DNA from: Sulfuricurvum kujiense DSM 16994
Lineage (GTDB): Bacteria; Campylobacterota; Campylobacteria; Campylobacterales; Sulfurimonadaceae
Assembly (NCBI RefSeq): GCF_000183725.1
Contig: NC_014762.1
Span: 2,108,001 to 2,172,000, forward strand
Reading direction: 5' to 3'
Length of the DNA stretch: 64,000 nt
Shown here piece by piece: positions 15,971-19,724 of this stretch (the first letter of the stretch is position 1; the number at the start of each line of letters is the position of its first letter). The position numbers were made by a program, and so were the translations under genes. The notes under the pieces are model-generated. The model ran no database searches. It saw only the letters and a list, made by a program, of their open reading frames with translations, and was not told where the DNA came from.

Positions 15971-16711
15971 TCACCGAATAATTTTATTAATAGCTGTTCT
16001 AGAAAGCCCTAAAAAATCTGCAATATCGGCTTGAGTATATCCGTACCGGTAACAGGCTCGGATTTTTTCATTGCGTTCTCCTTTTTGATCAAAAAAAGTA
16101 GATATAGGCTTATGAAGATATTTTTTATCGGTTGTATCTTTATTTATACGATGCATTTTATAAATTGATTTCAGTATCTCGTTTTGTAAAGGTGTGTCAA
16201 TAAATTCACTATATTCACTATCTTGCATCGTATGTATCTTTGACTGATCGATTATATAACTAAACGTATGACTGGATTGTGAAACGATCTGATATGAGTG
16301 ATAAGGATATTCGTTGATATTTTTGACTATCCCTGCAGCGATCGGATTACGTTCAATGTATTTGGCAACCGTCCAAAACTGTGTTTCATCATGAATCGGA
16401 AACGATTTGAAGCGTCCCTGCCATAAATGACCAGTTCGTTGATATGTTTGGTTGAAATATTTGGAATAATTTACATTTAAATATTTAAGTGCATCAGATA
16501 GATTATCGGACACCGTCTCTAGTAATAGATGGTAATGATTGTTCATCAAGCAATAGGCATGGAACTGTATACCGTATTTTGTTACCAAATCTCCGAGATA
16601 TGCCATAAACTGATCATAATCACGCTGATCTAAAAACACTTCTCGGCGTTCTACACCACGATTGATGACATGATAGGTACCGATTTCGTTATAGCGAGGG
16701 GGACGTGGCAT
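15971..16711 (-). CDS. REP-associated tyrosine transposase (RAYT), family 1
   Basis: 246 residues, Y1_Tnp (IS200/IS605-like) domain. It has the metal-binding HUH pair in NNHYHLLLE (about 57-65), the likely nucleophile Tyr in VAKYIERNP (about 115-123), and the typical start MPRPPRYNEIGTYHVINRG. The last 25 residues form a helix-turn-helix (YTQADIADFLGLSRTAINK). RAYTs process REP-type hairpins as single-copy domesticated or semi-mobile genes. Two palindromes of the AAGGTG-CCTGA-CACCTT type lie just upstream, and further copies and 5' remnants occur at 17.5-18.2 kb. An extended -10 TGC-TATAAT (complement of 16737-16742) lies 26 nt before the start. Intact. Confidence 0.92.
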   Translation of the reverse strand: MPRPPRYNEIGTYHVINRGVERREVFLDQRDYDQFMAYLGDLVTKYGIQFHAYCLMNNHYHLLLETVSDNLSDALKYLNVNYSKYFNQTYQRTGHLWQGRFKSFPIHDETQFWTVAKYIERNPIAAGIVKNINEYPYHSYQIVSQSSHTFSYIIDQSKIHTMQDSEYSEFIDTPLQNEILKSIYKMHRINKDTTDKKYLHKPISTFFDQKGERNEKIRACYRYGYTQADIADFLGLSRTAINKIIR

Positions 16712-16758: not shown

Positions 16759-16797
16759 AAGGTGCCTGACACCTTAACAAAAGGTGCCTGACACCTT
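16759..16797. repeat. Two REP-like palindromes in tandem
   Basis: Two copies of the 17-nt palindrome AAGGTG-CCTGA-CACCTT (16759-16775 and 16781-16797) are separated by 5 nt. They lie between RAYT family 1 and the first small membrane-protein cassette. The second copy overlaps the end of that cassette's reading frame and provides its last codons and stop. Confidence 0.9.
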
Positions 16798-17022
16798 AAA
16801 TTCCTTAAATTTAAATTTGTTATGCATCGATTTTGATATCCATATGAAGACTGCAATAGCAATCAAGATTACAGCGATACCTAACCAAAACAAAAGACCA
16901 ATATTTTTATCATCGTATAATTTTGCGACACCAGCACCGCTAGCTAAAACGATGGCAACTATAATGTTCAAATATGTCTTCAGAGCACCGATATGCTCTT
17001 TAACTTCATCTAATTTACTGAT
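16774..17022 (-). pseudogene. Cassette A: small two-TM membrane protein, start codon lost, 3' end replaced by a REP palindrome
   Basis: Aligning with the next cassette shows a reading frame of 82 codons from 17022. The ATG is changed to ATC (plus strand gat at 17020-17022 instead of cat), then S-K-L-D-E-V-K-E and two membrane helices (NIIVAIVLASGAGVA; GLLFWLGIAVILIAIAVFIW). The last residues KVSGTFC come from the REP-like palindrome, so the native C-terminus is gone. The promoter box TGA-TATAAT (complement of 17029-17034) is intact. A shorter product starting inside is possible but would lack the N-terminal helix. Confidence 0.65.
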
Positions 17023-17101
17023 ACAGAAATTATATCAGAAGAAAATGAAAAGAAATGATGATTGAAGATAACCGATATTTATAAAGTAGGGGGAAGTAAA
17101 A

Positions 17102-17115
17102 AAGGACAGACCCTT
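17102..17115. repeat. REP-like palindrome variant
   Basis: AAGGACAGACCCTT lies just after the 29-residue microprotein stop. It differs from the other two palindrome types but shares the central G(T/A)CAG(G/A)C core, suggesting a relic or a third family. Confidence 0.5.
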
Positions 17116-17118
17116 ATT

Positions 17119-17208
17119 TTACTCTTGTGACAATTTATAAACACCGAAAAACATCACACCCATTGTAGCAATACCTATAATAATCAAAGCAATCGTTGGC
17201 GCATCCAT
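17119..17208 (-). CDS. 29-residue single-TM microprotein of cassette B
   Basis: The frame starts at an ATG overlapping the TGA of the 76-residue gene by 1 nt (TGATG), with an AAAGGA ribosome-binding site about 7 nt upstream. The product begins MDAPTIALIIIGIATMGV and ends VYKLSQE: a single hydrophobic helix with short polar ends. Overlap and ribosome-binding site point to translational coupling. An analogous 34-residue gene follows the larger gene in cassette C, which strengthens the case that both are real. Function unknown. Confidence 0.65.
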   Translation of the reverse strand: MDAPTIALIIIGIATMGVMFFGVYKLSQE

Positions 17209-17438
17209 CACAGTTCCTTTATCTCTTTTGTTTTTTTCGAAATACTAGTCATCAATAGTACTATCACAGTCAAAGTCAAAACTGCAAACCCTACTCCACT
17301 CCAAAAAAGAGTATCGATGATTTGATCATCATAACGTTTGATTAAACCACCAACGATAACTACCAATAAGCCAAATCCGATAGTCATGGCAACACGGAGT
17401 GTGTTTAGTATTTCTTTTACTTCATCTAATTTACTCAT
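17208..17438 (-). CDS. Cassette B: small two-TM membrane protein
   Basis: 76 residues: amphipathic charged N-terminus (MSKLDEVKEILNTLR), two membrane helices (about 17-33 and 42-64) joined by a charged turn (KRYDDQ), and a Lys/Glu-rich tail. It is a paralogue of the frames at 16774, 17664 and 18181. It has a TGA-TATAAT promoter 6 nt before the ATG, so the mRNA is probably leaderless, and a coupled 29-residue microprotein downstream. No known family recognised. The small-membrane-pair layout recalls type I toxins, holin-like proteins and small stress proteins, but nothing here proves any of these. Confidence 0.75.
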   Translation of the reverse strand: MSKLDEVKEILNTLRVAMTIGFGLLVVIVGGLIKRYDDQIIDTLFWSGVGFAVLTLTVIVLLMTSISKKTKEIKEL

Positions 17439-17444
17439 ACAGAA

Positions 17445-17503
17445 ATTATATCAGAAGAAAATGAAAAGAAATGATGATTGAAGATAACCGACATTATGTG
17501 AAG
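17445..17503 (-). promoter_or_regulatory. Promoter and conserved upstream box of cassette B
   Basis: Extended -10 TGA-TATAAT (complement of 17445-17453) with 6 nt to the ATG. An upstream box GACATTATGTGAAG (plus strand, 17490-17503) recurs at cassettes C and D. In B the distance from box to -10 is 11 nt longer than in C and D. Confidence 0.65.
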
Positions 17504-17521
17504 CTGAGGGGTGGTTTATAA

Positions 17522-17538
17522 AAGGTGCATGACACCTT
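17522..17538. repeat. REP-like palindrome
   Basis: AAGGTG-CATGA-CACCTT, one base different in the loop from the other copies. It lies between the microprotein of cassette C and the promoter of cassette B, where it could also act as a terminator hairpin. Confidence 0.85.
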
Positions 17539-17556
17539 TTATATGTGAACTAAAAA

Positions 17557-17661
17557 TCACTTATCGTGATTGATTCTCCAACCCGAAGCATCGTGTTTTG
17601 CTAAATAGACTAAAACTCCTAATGTAGCTGCAGCTAAGGTTAGTGCAAATATTTCAACCAT
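17557..17661 (-). CDS. 34-residue single-TM microprotein of cassette C
   Basis: ATG at 17661, 2 nt after the stop of the 84-residue gene, with a strong AAGGAGGAA ribosome-binding site inside that gene's end. The product begins MVEIFALTLAAATLGVLVYL and ends with a polar tail GWRINHDK. It occupies the same position relative to its larger neighbour as the 29-residue microprotein of cassette B, but its sequence differs. Probably inserted in the inner membrane; function unknown. Confidence 0.65.
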   Translation of the reverse strand: MVEIFALTLAAATLGVLVYLAKHDASGWRINHDK

Positions 17662-17663
17662 GA

Positions 17664-17918
17664 TCATTCCTCCTTTTCAAGTTCATCAAGTTTTTGCTCA
17701 ATCTTCGTCTCAATATTTTTATAGTAAAAAGCTATAAAAATAAAACCAGAAAATCCAATAGAACCTAAGATTAGCATATAAATTGGTTTGTCGCCGGATA
17801 ATACTGAATATACCAAAACAACAATTGCTGAAGCGATAGCGAATAGGATGTTGAACCAATCCTTCCTTGCTTCTCTTAAACTACCGATCTCTTGTAAAAG
17901 TTTATCTTTTTTACTCAT
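17664..17918 (-). CDS. Cassette C: small two-TM membrane protein
   Basis: 84 residues: charged N-terminal helix (MSKKDKLLQEIGSLREARKD), two membrane helices (about 22-41 and 46-66) and an acidic/basic coiled tail (IETKIEQKLDELEKEE). Same architecture and promoter arrangement as cassette B (TGA-TATAAT, 6 nt, ATG). Co-encoded with the 34-residue microprotein. The sequence is clearly diverged from B, so the cassettes are old paralogues rather than a recent duplication. Confidence 0.75.
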   Translation of the reverse strand: MSKKDKLLQEIGSLREARKDWFNILFAIASAIVVLVYSVLSGDKPIYMLILGSIGFSGFIFIAFYYKNIETKIEQKLDELEKEE

Positions 17919-17924
17919 GTGACA

Positions 17925-17972
17925 ATTATATCAGAAATAGATAGTTATGAAGATAATGGACATTATGTAAAG
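17925..17972 (-). promoter_or_regulatory. Promoter and conserved upstream box of cassette C
   Basis: Extended -10 TGA-TATAAT (complement of 17925-17933), 6 nt from the ATG. The upstream box GACATTATGTAAAG (17959-17972, plus strand) is 28 nt from the -10, the same spacing as in cassette D. Confidence 0.65.
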
Positions 17973-17990
17973 CGGAGAAGAATGTTACTA

Positions 17991-18066
17991 AAGGTGCCTG
18001 ACACCTTTATCCCCTAAATCAAAAGAAATTATAGCATCTTAGTTTACAAAAGGTGCCTGACACCTT
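17991..18066. repeat. Two REP-like palindromes with a RAYT upstream-region remnant between
   Basis: Palindromes at 17991-18007 and 18050-18066 (AAGGTG-CCTGA-CACCTT). The stretch between, from about 18012, repeats the RAYT family 1 upstream region (aaatcaaaagaaattatagc and following bases, compare 16725-16776), without any coding part. Confidence 0.85.
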
Positions 18067-18067
18067 T

Positions 18068-18116
18068 ATTTGACATGATATGTACCGATTTCGTTATAGC
18101 GAGGGGGACGTGGCAT
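18068..18116 (-). pseudogene. RAYT family 1 remnant (first 15 codons)
   Basis: The first 15 codons (MPRPPRYNEIGTYHV) and the upstream region of the RAYT at 15971 are repeated here, then run straight into a REP-like palindrome. With the palindrome at 18164-18180 on its other side this forms a hairpin-flanked mini-element of about 130 bp that has lost the transposase body. Confidence 0.85.
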
Positions 18117-18163
18117 CTAATCTCCTTCTAAATCAAAAGAAATTATAGCATGTTAGTTTACAA

Positions 18164-18180
18164 AAGGTGCCTGACACCTT
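18164..18180. repeat. REP-like palindrome
   Basis: AAGGTG-CCTGA-CACCTT, joined directly to the 3' end of the broken cassette D and upstream of the RAYT remnant. Confidence 0.88.
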
Positions 18181-18367
18181 TACAAAAAAGTGTTAAAACT
18201 ATTCCTACTAATCCAACAATGGCTATCCATATTGGAACTTTACCGAGTAATACCTGATAAAACGAAGCGAAGCTACCCGTTCCTACGGTAAGAAAAATAA
18301 GAAAAATATTTCTGTATTCCTCTTTTAAAATACCAATCTATTCTTTTAAATAATCTTTTTTACCCAT
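18181..18367 (-). pseudogene. Cassette D: broken small two-TM membrane protein
   Basis: From the ATG at 18367 the frame reads MGKKDYLKE, then a TAG stop, then continues in frame with IGILKEEYRN and two membrane-helix-like stretches (IFLIFLTVGTG; WIAIVGLVGIVLTLF) before running into a REP-like palindrome. It is a paralogue of cassettes B and C, disabled by a nonsense codon and by loss of the 3' end. Its promoter (TGA-TATAAT, complement of 18374-18382) and upstream box (18408-18421) are still intact. Confidence 0.7.
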
Positions 18368-18460
18368 AACGCCATTATATCAGAAAGAGATAATTTTGAG
18401 GATTATGGACATTATGTGAACGGAGGGAGGTTTACAAAAAACACCTGACTACATTTTCGC

Positions 18461-19204
18461 TTATTGATGCACATATTTGCTAACAGCAGAATGACTTAGG
18501 TTGAGAAACGAAGCAATTTCAGATACTGTATATCCATACTCATATGCACGTTTTGCATTTTCAGATCGATTATTATCTTTATCTTCCTCAAATAAAGTTT
18601 CTAGGCGTTTGTATAAAAAAGTTAGTTTTCCATCTTTTTGTACTATTTTTGGTGTATCGTAAATCTTAGCAAGTATGTCATCACTTAAATCAGTTGATAT
18701 GTAATTTTCATACTCTTGCAATGTCATGTCATATATTTTAGAATCGCTGACTAATAAAGCTTCTTTATAGGTTTTTCGCTCATAAAAAGATTGGTAAGGA
18801 TATTCAATGATATTTTCAACCATTGATACTTTTATCGGATTGCGTTCAATGTATTTAGCAACATACCAAAAGTGAATATCATCGTAGAGGTAGTACGAAT
18901 GGAACCTTCCCTGCCACAAATGACCAGACCGCTTATATTTTTTATTGAAATAGATCGAATATAGTGAGTTTAGCCGCTGCATTGCCGCCGAGATATTAGG
19001 TAGAGCTGTTTCAATCAATAGATGATAATGATTGGTCATTAAGCAATACGCATGTACAATTAAATGAAAATCACGCTTTATCTCTATAAATAGTGAAAGA
19101 AATGTATCAAAATCATCGGGCTCTAAAAAAACATTTCTTCTCTCAACCCCTCTGGAAATGCAATGATAATATCCAGGTTCAGTAATACGATATTTTCTGG
19201 GCAT
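18461..19204 (-). CDS. REP-associated tyrosine transposase (RAYT), family 2
   Basis: 247 residues, Y1_Tnp domain. It starts MPRKYRITEPGYYHCISRG; the HUH motif is in TNHYHLLIE, the probable catalytic Tyr in VAKYIERNP, and a C-terminal helix-turn-helix is present (YTVSEIASFLNLSHSAVSK). It differs strongly from family 1 and is associated with another palindrome, GGGGTCAGACCCC (19275 and 19795). It appears intact; a partial second copy lies immediately upstream. Confidence 0.92.
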   Translation of the reverse strand: MPRKYRITEPGYYHCISRGVERRNVFLEPDDFDTFLSLFIEIKRDFHLIVHAYCLMTNHYHLLIETALPNISAAMQRLNSLYSIYFNKKYKRSGHLWQGRFHSYYLYDDIHFWYVAKYIERNPIKVSMVENIIEYPYQSFYERKTYKEALLVSDSKIYDMTLQEYENYISTDLSDDILAKIYDTPKIVQKDGKLTFLYKRLETLFEEDKDNNRSENAKRAYEYGYTVSEIASFLNLSHSAVSKYVHQ

Positions 19205-19274: not shown

Positions 19275-19287
19275 GGGGTCAGACCCC
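19275..19287. repeat. REP-like palindrome, type 2
   Basis: GGGGTCAGACCCC, upstream of the intact RAYT family 2 gene and at the junction with the truncated copy, whose stop codon it supplies. Confidence 0.85.
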
Positions 19288-19724
19288 TATTTTTTTCGCT
19301 CATAAAAAGATTGGTAAGGATATTCAATGATATTTTCAACCATTGATACTTTTATCGGATTGCGTTCAATGTATTTAGCAACATACCAAAAGTGAATATC
19401 ATCGTAGAGGTAGTACGAATGGAACCTTCCCTGCCATAAATGACCAGACCGCTTATATTTTTTATTGAAATAGATCGAATATAGTGAGTTTAGCCGTTGC
19501 ATTGCTGTTGAAATATTAGGTTGGGTTGTCTCAATCAAAATATGATAGTGATTAGTCATTAAACAATACGCATGTACAATTAAATGAAAATCACGCTTTA
19601 TCTCTATAAATAGTGAAAGAAATGTATCAAAATCATCGGGCTCTAAAAAAACATTTCTTCTCTCAACCCCTCTGGAAATGCAATGATAATATCCAGGTTC
19701 AGTAATACGATATTTTCTGGGCAT
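19287..19724 (-). pseudogene. Truncated RAYT family 2 copy
   Basis: 145 codons identical or nearly so to the start of the RAYT at 18461, including HUH (TNHYHILIE) and the catalytic Tyr region, then TAG formed at the type 2 palindrome. It lacks the C-terminal third including the helix-turn-helix. It might still be translated, but is most simply a duplication product. Confidence 0.88.

Follow-up and report, generated by a model that had tools for sequence, protein, structure and literature searches.

A putatively mobile family of two-gene cassettes with the promoter set against the start codon, in Sulfuricurvum kujiense and beyond

In Proteobacteria and Campylobacterota, leaderless genes are usually regarded as isolated cases that gain and lose the leaderless state. 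The principle itself is already known in the phylum to which Sulfuricurvum belongs (PMC3847290): in the part of that study drawn on here, 19 5′ UTRs of Campylobacter jejuni are shorter than 10 nt, 12 of these belong to transcripts that begin at the initiation codon, have a TAnAaT box and lack a ribosome-binding site, and only cj1247c/hp0820 was predicted to be leaderless in every species containing it (PMC3847290). Judged from the open-access literature searched, in which there was no paper on the two-gene family considered here, a mobile and unnamed two-gene family that keeps the leaderless state is apparently undescribed.

The window analysed, a stretch of 64,000 nt from Sulfuricurvum kujiense, is part of a 2.57 Mb contig (genome size 2.82 Mb) and contains four cassettes, A to D, all on the minus strand. 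Cassette B (17208..17438) encodes an intact 76-aa two-helix membrane protein, identified from its ORF and its family homologs, with its start ATG at 17438-17436; the extended -10 element, TGATATAAT, lies at 17445..17453 and is separated from the ATG by six nucleotides (17439-17444). It is followed by a microprotein of 29 aa with one hydrophobic helix (17119..17208), whose ATG (17208) overlaps the stop codon of B and which has the Shine-Dalgarno (SD) sequence AAAGGA. Cassette C (17664..17918, start ATG 17918-17916) encodes an intact 84-aa relative, again with TGATATAAT (17925..17933) six nucleotides before the ATG, and its 36-aa microprotein (17557..17667, start ATG 17667) overlaps C in an ATGA and has the SD AAGGAGG. 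Cassettes A and D are remnants, so that only B and C are intact. Cassette A (16774..17022), which is related to B, starts with ATC at 17022, six nucleotides (TTCTGT) after TGATATAAT at 17029..17037, and its 3′ end is fused to a REP repeat; cassette D (18158..18367, the low end being approximate) has TGATATAAT at 18374..18382 and the same six nucleotides' distance to its ATG at 18367, a TAG at codon 10, and a REP repeat in place of its 3′ end. Both decayed 3′ ends run into GTGTCAGGCACC repeats and neither cassette has a microprotein. An earlier note on this DNA had described TGA-TATAAT, six nucleotides and a start in all four cassettes and strong ribosome-binding sites for the microproteins: the layout is indeed present in A to D, but counting four cassettes overstates the case given the decay of A and D, and the strong sites belong to B and C only.

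No SD-like word was found on inspection before the starts of the window cassettes. Scanned for generic -35/-10 pairs at 9 of 12 matches, the region has 8 promoter-like sites against a shuffle mean of 7.8. The TGATATAAT sites are not among them, which is what extended -10 promoters would lead one to expect. In the whole 2.82 Mb genome TGATATAAT-N6-ATG occurs three times, always on the minus strand and at B (17436-17453), C (17916-17933) and D (18365-18382), while the reversed control pattern has no match. The looser TATAAT-N0-20-ATG has 558 genome matches against 530 for its reversed control, and is thus hardly enriched genome-wide; it is the TGA-extended form at N6 that is special.

The conserved box that had been pointed out upstream of B, C and D is present there, as GACATTATGT(A/G)AA at + 17490-17502, 17959-17971 and 18408-18420, respectively. 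As minus-strand features these read TTCACATAATGTC for B (centre of ACATAATGT 57 nt before the ATG), TTTACATAATGTC for C (centre 46 nt before the ATG) and TTCACATAATGTC for D, with D spaced from its -10 exactly as C, in agreement with the equal spacing noted before. In the genome search that the earlier note had proposed, ACATWATGT-N15-45-TATAAT, like TGATATAAT-N6-ATG, matches three times in the genome and every time at the window cassettes; YACATAATGTC has five genome matches, three of them at these cassettes. With at most one mismatch allowed, ACATAATGT is found in loci of the genus Sulfuricurvum with centres at -46, -46, -46, -47, -56, -57 and -65 before the ATG, where the three at -46 are window cassette C and two copies in locus L017, and -57 is cassette B. 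One-mismatch matches elsewhere (L015, L058, L067 and L086) lie at other distances, and most of the family has no box, which is Sulfuricurvum-specific. Steps of 9-11 nt between box positions suggest, from small numbers, a protein binding to the same face of the DNA, and the box may be an operator, placed near -46 or one turn further out.

The upstream DNA of A and B is near-identical, with about 60 nt in common, and B, C and D have the box and TTCTGATATAAT in common. The kinship of A and B and the decay of A and D leave at most three partly related cases, making the window by itself weak evidence, so we turned to the wider family. Searched by tblastn with protein B, 17 of 100 genomes (counting that of the window) gave 36 matches in all, and a family profile built from 24 members matched 71 of 398 genomes of the order and 30 of 201 genomes in the family of one Methylobacter genome (methanotrophs). 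The distribution is patchy and multi-copy, with up to 14 matches per genome. Named genomes, when scanned, yielded 34 loci, from Sulfurimonas, Sulfurovum, Arcobacter and Sulfuricurvum, together with relatives of 58-64% identity in Methylobacter, in Methylococcaceae/Methylococcales and in a Nitrosomonas MAG; these records are mostly MAGs, and two Methylobacter (L101, L117) carry a strain or isolate name with no MAG label. The loci fetched for analysis were the given ones plus 40 chosen stretches from the matches listed, a part of those listed. Some family matches are weak, and an HMM match near the threshold may be false, as L199 shows. Of two candidate fusion proteins, L199 (892 aa) is by eye a P-type ATPase, and L200 (367 aa) is a stop-to-stop frame with an ordinary family copy at its end.

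To count promoter layouts we took 155 homologs and set aside 35 with no Met near profile position 1, one with less than 40 nt upstream and 18 near-identical ones, leaving 101 non-redundant upstreams (less than 70% identity over 40 nt). In 71 of them a -10 element (at least 5/6 to TATAAT) ends 5-7 nt before the ATG, with 39 at a spacing of 6, 29 at 5 and three at 7; the fixed spacing of six nucleotides claimed earlier holds for A to D, but in the wider family it is 5 or 6. At spacing 6, shuffled upstreams averaged 1.6 such elements and never had more than 7. Among control ORFs of at least 120 aa from the same loci the layout was found in 15/255, or in 22/255 if any early in-frame ATG is allowed, and even with this generous count the family differs from the controls (Fisher p = 4e-31). 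An SD-like word is absent from 69 of the 71 layout copies, as had been supposed for the window messages, and present in 127/255 control first-ATG ORFs. These counts, the information concentrated at the extended -10 (with smaller peaks at -1 and -17) and the -35 elements described below together support the leaderless reading of the earlier note, as a prediction from sequence.

Start codons were recounted with the same filter, keeping non-Met rows and including the methanotroph loci fetched later (n=138). Copies with the layout and no SD (n=78) have 74 ATG, one ATA, one ATC, one ATT and one TGG, with no GTG or TTG, which fits the report, in the sections of PMC4633059 used here, that leaderless initiation in E. 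coli falls below 10% activity with GTG; copies that lack the layout (n=58) have six GTG/TTG. Two leaderless-layout copies have ATC for ATG, namely window position 17022 and L049:1498, the latter otherwise intact-looking and with a microprotein, so that a near-cognate leaderless start is conceivable. In 45 sequences with N6-ATG the information is 1.1-2 bits across TATAAT, the hexamer itself being the selection criterion, while the unselected positions hold 1.4 (G-14), 0.8 (T-15), 1.0 (T-17) and 0.7 (T-1) bits and positions -6..-2 about zero. The family thus has the marks of bacterial leaderless mRNAs, which are a -10 element 5-9 nt before the start, no SD and a preference for AUG.

Comparison of related copies at different sites indicates where the unit begins. 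In 31 copy pairs of 60-92% protein identity and unrelated far-upstream DNA, similarity drops off at the extended -10. For instance, B and its homolog in L005, a locus from another genome of the genus (88% protein identity), agree at 15/17 positions from -17 to -1, at 8/23 from -40 to -18, and at 27% further out, and the copies in L017 and L018 are 92% identical in protein with a far-upstream identity of 17%. The heritable part of the unit would therefore start at about the -10.

Copies in Pseudomonadota were considered separately, as 28 non-redundant upstreams, mostly from Gammaproteobacteria and one from Nitrosomonas. Their -10 is weaker, with TAnnnT at exactly -12..-7 in 13/28 (shuffle mean 1.3, maximum 7) and an SD-like word in 6/28. 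Five of the 28 have TTGAC at exactly -35 from the ATG (shuffle mean 0.02, maximum 1), with TATTGT, TACGCT, TATTAT, TATTAT and TACTAT as hexamers at -12; by sequence, these are textbook promoters with a predicted +1 on the A of the ATG. The layout appears to be kept in distantly related bacteria, seemingly across an inter-phylum jump.

The family is not obligately leaderless, since 12 of the 30 upstreams that lack the layout have an SD. In L020, L064, L070 and L075 the -10 lies 24-28 nt upstream with an SD in between, making these ordinary leadered copies. Two loci, L096 (G219:C2:25000-36000) and L200 (G090:C2), hold arrays of divergent members starting MK(L/I)DR, and the four copies in L096 have nearly identical upstream DNA with an SD in place of the leaderless layout; within the family, these arrays are a branch that is leadered and amplified. 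In the protein tree (120 rows, 76 columns), whose resolution is poor, leaderless and SD-led copies are interspersed. Its well-supported branches require the leaderless label to change at least 11 times, some labels being rough (L111_3994 is SD via a chance word, and the methanotrophs include an 'other' class).

The AlphaFold2 model of the 76-aa protein B has a mean pLDDT of 84.7 and helices at 3-37 and 43-75, which, with the distribution of positive charges, suggests that the protein crosses the membrane twice and has its two ends on the cytoplasmic side. The first cistron is under purifying selection, with dN 0.069 and dS 0.76 (dN/dS about 0.09) between B and its L005 homolog and dN 0.017 and dS 0.34 (dN/dS 0.05) between L100 and L101; dN for the microprotein is 0.047, dS not being computable. 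Of 119 full-length homologs, 116 have a hydrophobic ORF of 22-60 aa starting near their stop, and in 109 of the 119 its start falls at -4..+2 from the first-cistron stop. Though the ORF finder favours SD-bearing starts, which biases the count of microprotein SDs, the same finder applied to 273 control ORFs gave 21 such ORFs, five with an SD and none with both an SD and a start at -4..+2. In Pfam and NCBIfam, B, C and their microproteins had nothing above any curated cut-off and the best PADLOC match had an E-value of 0.0016; PHROG gave no convincing family, and in a fold comparison the PDB entries matched were just generic helical hairpins, without any at E <= 0.001.

Several observations bear on mobility. 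At the site after glnS (recognised by eye) in the genus of the above Methylobacter, the unit is present in 4 of 30 loci and absent in 26, one of which (L171, 118 nt) is uninformative; the pattern is as expected for insertion between two housekeeping genes, and no terminal repeats were seen by eye. Neighbours are, again by eye, mostly housekeeping genes rather than defence islands, and the phage, plasmid and viral-contig collections searched held no family matches. An integron gene cassette is unlikely, the units being single and between housekeeping genes. Some neighbourhoods are shared, from genes recognised by eye: in L108 and L119 (Sulfurimonas, Sulfurovum or related MAGs) the unit lies between type IV pilin-like and priA-like genes, and the gene preceding it in L013, L032 and L103 has a similar C-terminal sequence, with an ispG-like gene next in L013 and L032. 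In the window, the cassettes are surrounded by REP-like GTGTCAGGCAC repeats and by three minus-strand ORFs for REP-associated tyrosine transposases (RAYT; 15971-16711, 18461-19204 and 19287-19724), which come with repeats of GGTGCCTGACACC and GGTCAGACCCC, and the decayed ends of A and D enter REP; the third ORF is a truncated near-copy of the second, by a tandem duplication of about 0.5 kb. However, RAYT-like ORFs were found in only 16 of the 163 fetched loci, some of which overlap in source, and for this reason we rejected both RAYT as a general mover of the unit and membership of the RAYT/REP elements. Four RAYT-like genes (in L017, in L027 and two ORFs of L122) themselves have a -10-like hexamer 5-7 nt before the ATG, and the leaderless state may thus extend to some transposase genes.

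The stretch common to copies runs from the -10 to the end of the microprotein, and we consider it likely, from the sequence comparisons, that each intact cassette forms a self-contained unit of two cistrons, about 330 bp long, of which the first is leaderless and the second SD-driven and coupled. RNA polymerase would recognise TGnTATAAT and start 7 nt past the hexamer, since six nucleotides and a -10 at -12..-7 put +1 on the A of the ATG; with the promoter abutting the start codon, the message should be leaderless. We infer that transcription does start on this A and that ribosomes initiate on the leaderless end, where the mRNA would begin with AUG and the cistron of the two-helix membrane protein would be translated as leaderless message. 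The ribosome would then terminate at a stop overlapping or adjoining the start of the microprotein, which has 24-56 aa and a single helix, where an SD lying partly inside the conserved ...KEIKDL codons would give strong coupled initiation, and the two products would form a complex in the inner membrane. A unit whose shared part runs from -10 to microprotein could be moved between intergenic sites or hosts with just enough promoter.

Other explanations of the spacing have to be considered against this. The identity of spacing could be the mere product of recent duplication inside the window, for which the 60 nt common to A and B and the box and TTCTGATATAAT of B, C and D would speak; but it recurs in non-redundant upstreams of many genera and in Pseudomonadota, so that duplication, which we regard as extremely improbable, is contradicted by the family data and accounts only for the box of the window. 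That the transcripts are leadered, by an upstream start or read-through that would put the ATG on an unstructured SD-less leader and make the TATAAT incidental or secondary, is unlikely: the upstream DNA is AT-rich and some homologs clearly have SD-bearing leaders, but against it stand a spacing held at 5-6 nt in upstreams that are not related to one another, when controls give 15/255, and gammaproteobacterial copies with a -35 element at exactly -35. The first ORF might also serve chiefly in cis, as an upstream ORF that controls the microprotein by being translated, which the start-stop overlap and an SD inside its last codons would allow; its conserved two-helix protein and the low dN/dS in both pairs argue against this, and make it very unlikely in our view.

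A further possibility concerns function and is compatible with the leaderless layout, namely that the two genes make up a pair at the membrane, toxin-antitoxin-like or for abortive infection, with one partner leaderless and weak or favoured by stress, and the other strongly driven by its SD. Toxin-antitoxin loci are often patchy and multi-copy. The family resembles them in both respects, with up to 14 matches in one genome, as well as in its two small co-directional genes that overlap or adjoin (116/119). Decayed copies beside intact ones and close relatives in other classes also speak for this reading, and 32 of 37 M. tuberculosis toxin-antitoxin pairs with a primary TSS are leaderless in the part of PMC3898074 considered here. 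Such patchiness, multiplicity and decay favour a toxin-antitoxin-like over a stress-response pair. However, Pfam, NCBIfam and PADLOC held no fitting toxin or antitoxin family, and the housekeeping-like neighbours and the absence from the phage, plasmid and viral collections speak against a classic mobile defence system, leaving this assignment doubtful. Returning to the leaderless bicistronic unit, its two proteins probably act jointly in the inner membrane, as a conditionally expressed membrane-stress or toxin-antitoxin-like pair. More tentatively, and as a possibility only, leaderless initiation may be the conserved switch of a mobile family, by which the first protein would be made mainly under stress with the SD-driven microprotein as its partner or restraint, the layout being selected through jumps between sites and phyla while hosts rebuild the -35 around the same +1.

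Because most copies appear leaderless over independent upstreams and phyla, the family offers a natural test of selection for leaderless translation itself, and of the way in which a promoter of less than 20 bp can travel with a small gene. It is also a widespread, unnamed pair of small membrane proteins, of which the microprotein partner would escape most annotation.

Among described systems, the M. tuberculosis toxin-antitoxin modules of PMC3898074 are likewise leaderless and bicistronic, as is predicted here; in what we could compare with that source no sequence relation was seen, and a toxin-antitoxin role is putative for the present family. The mycobacterial leaderless small ORFs, as described in the sections of PMC4633059 used, share a leaderless small ORF first in the transcript and an RTGA-type start-stop coupling, but belong to another phylum and to other proteins, whereas the present unit encodes two small membrane proteins and stands alone, with no metabolic operon. 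Closest in layout are the leaderless mRNAs of C. jejuni and H. pylori found by dRNA-seq (PMC3847290, in part), with gnTAnaAT-N5-9-ATG, no ribosome-binding site and an ATG start, where the transcription start is mapped and here it is predicted. With a crude motif we looked for a neighbouring uvrC, as a link between the family and cj1247c, and did not find it, homology to cj1247c being a separate question. In C. jejuni and H. pylori the leaderless state is, by the same partial account, poorly conserved between species (PMC3847290), whereas here it appears to be largely kept by a patchy, multi-copy family, also outside the phylum.
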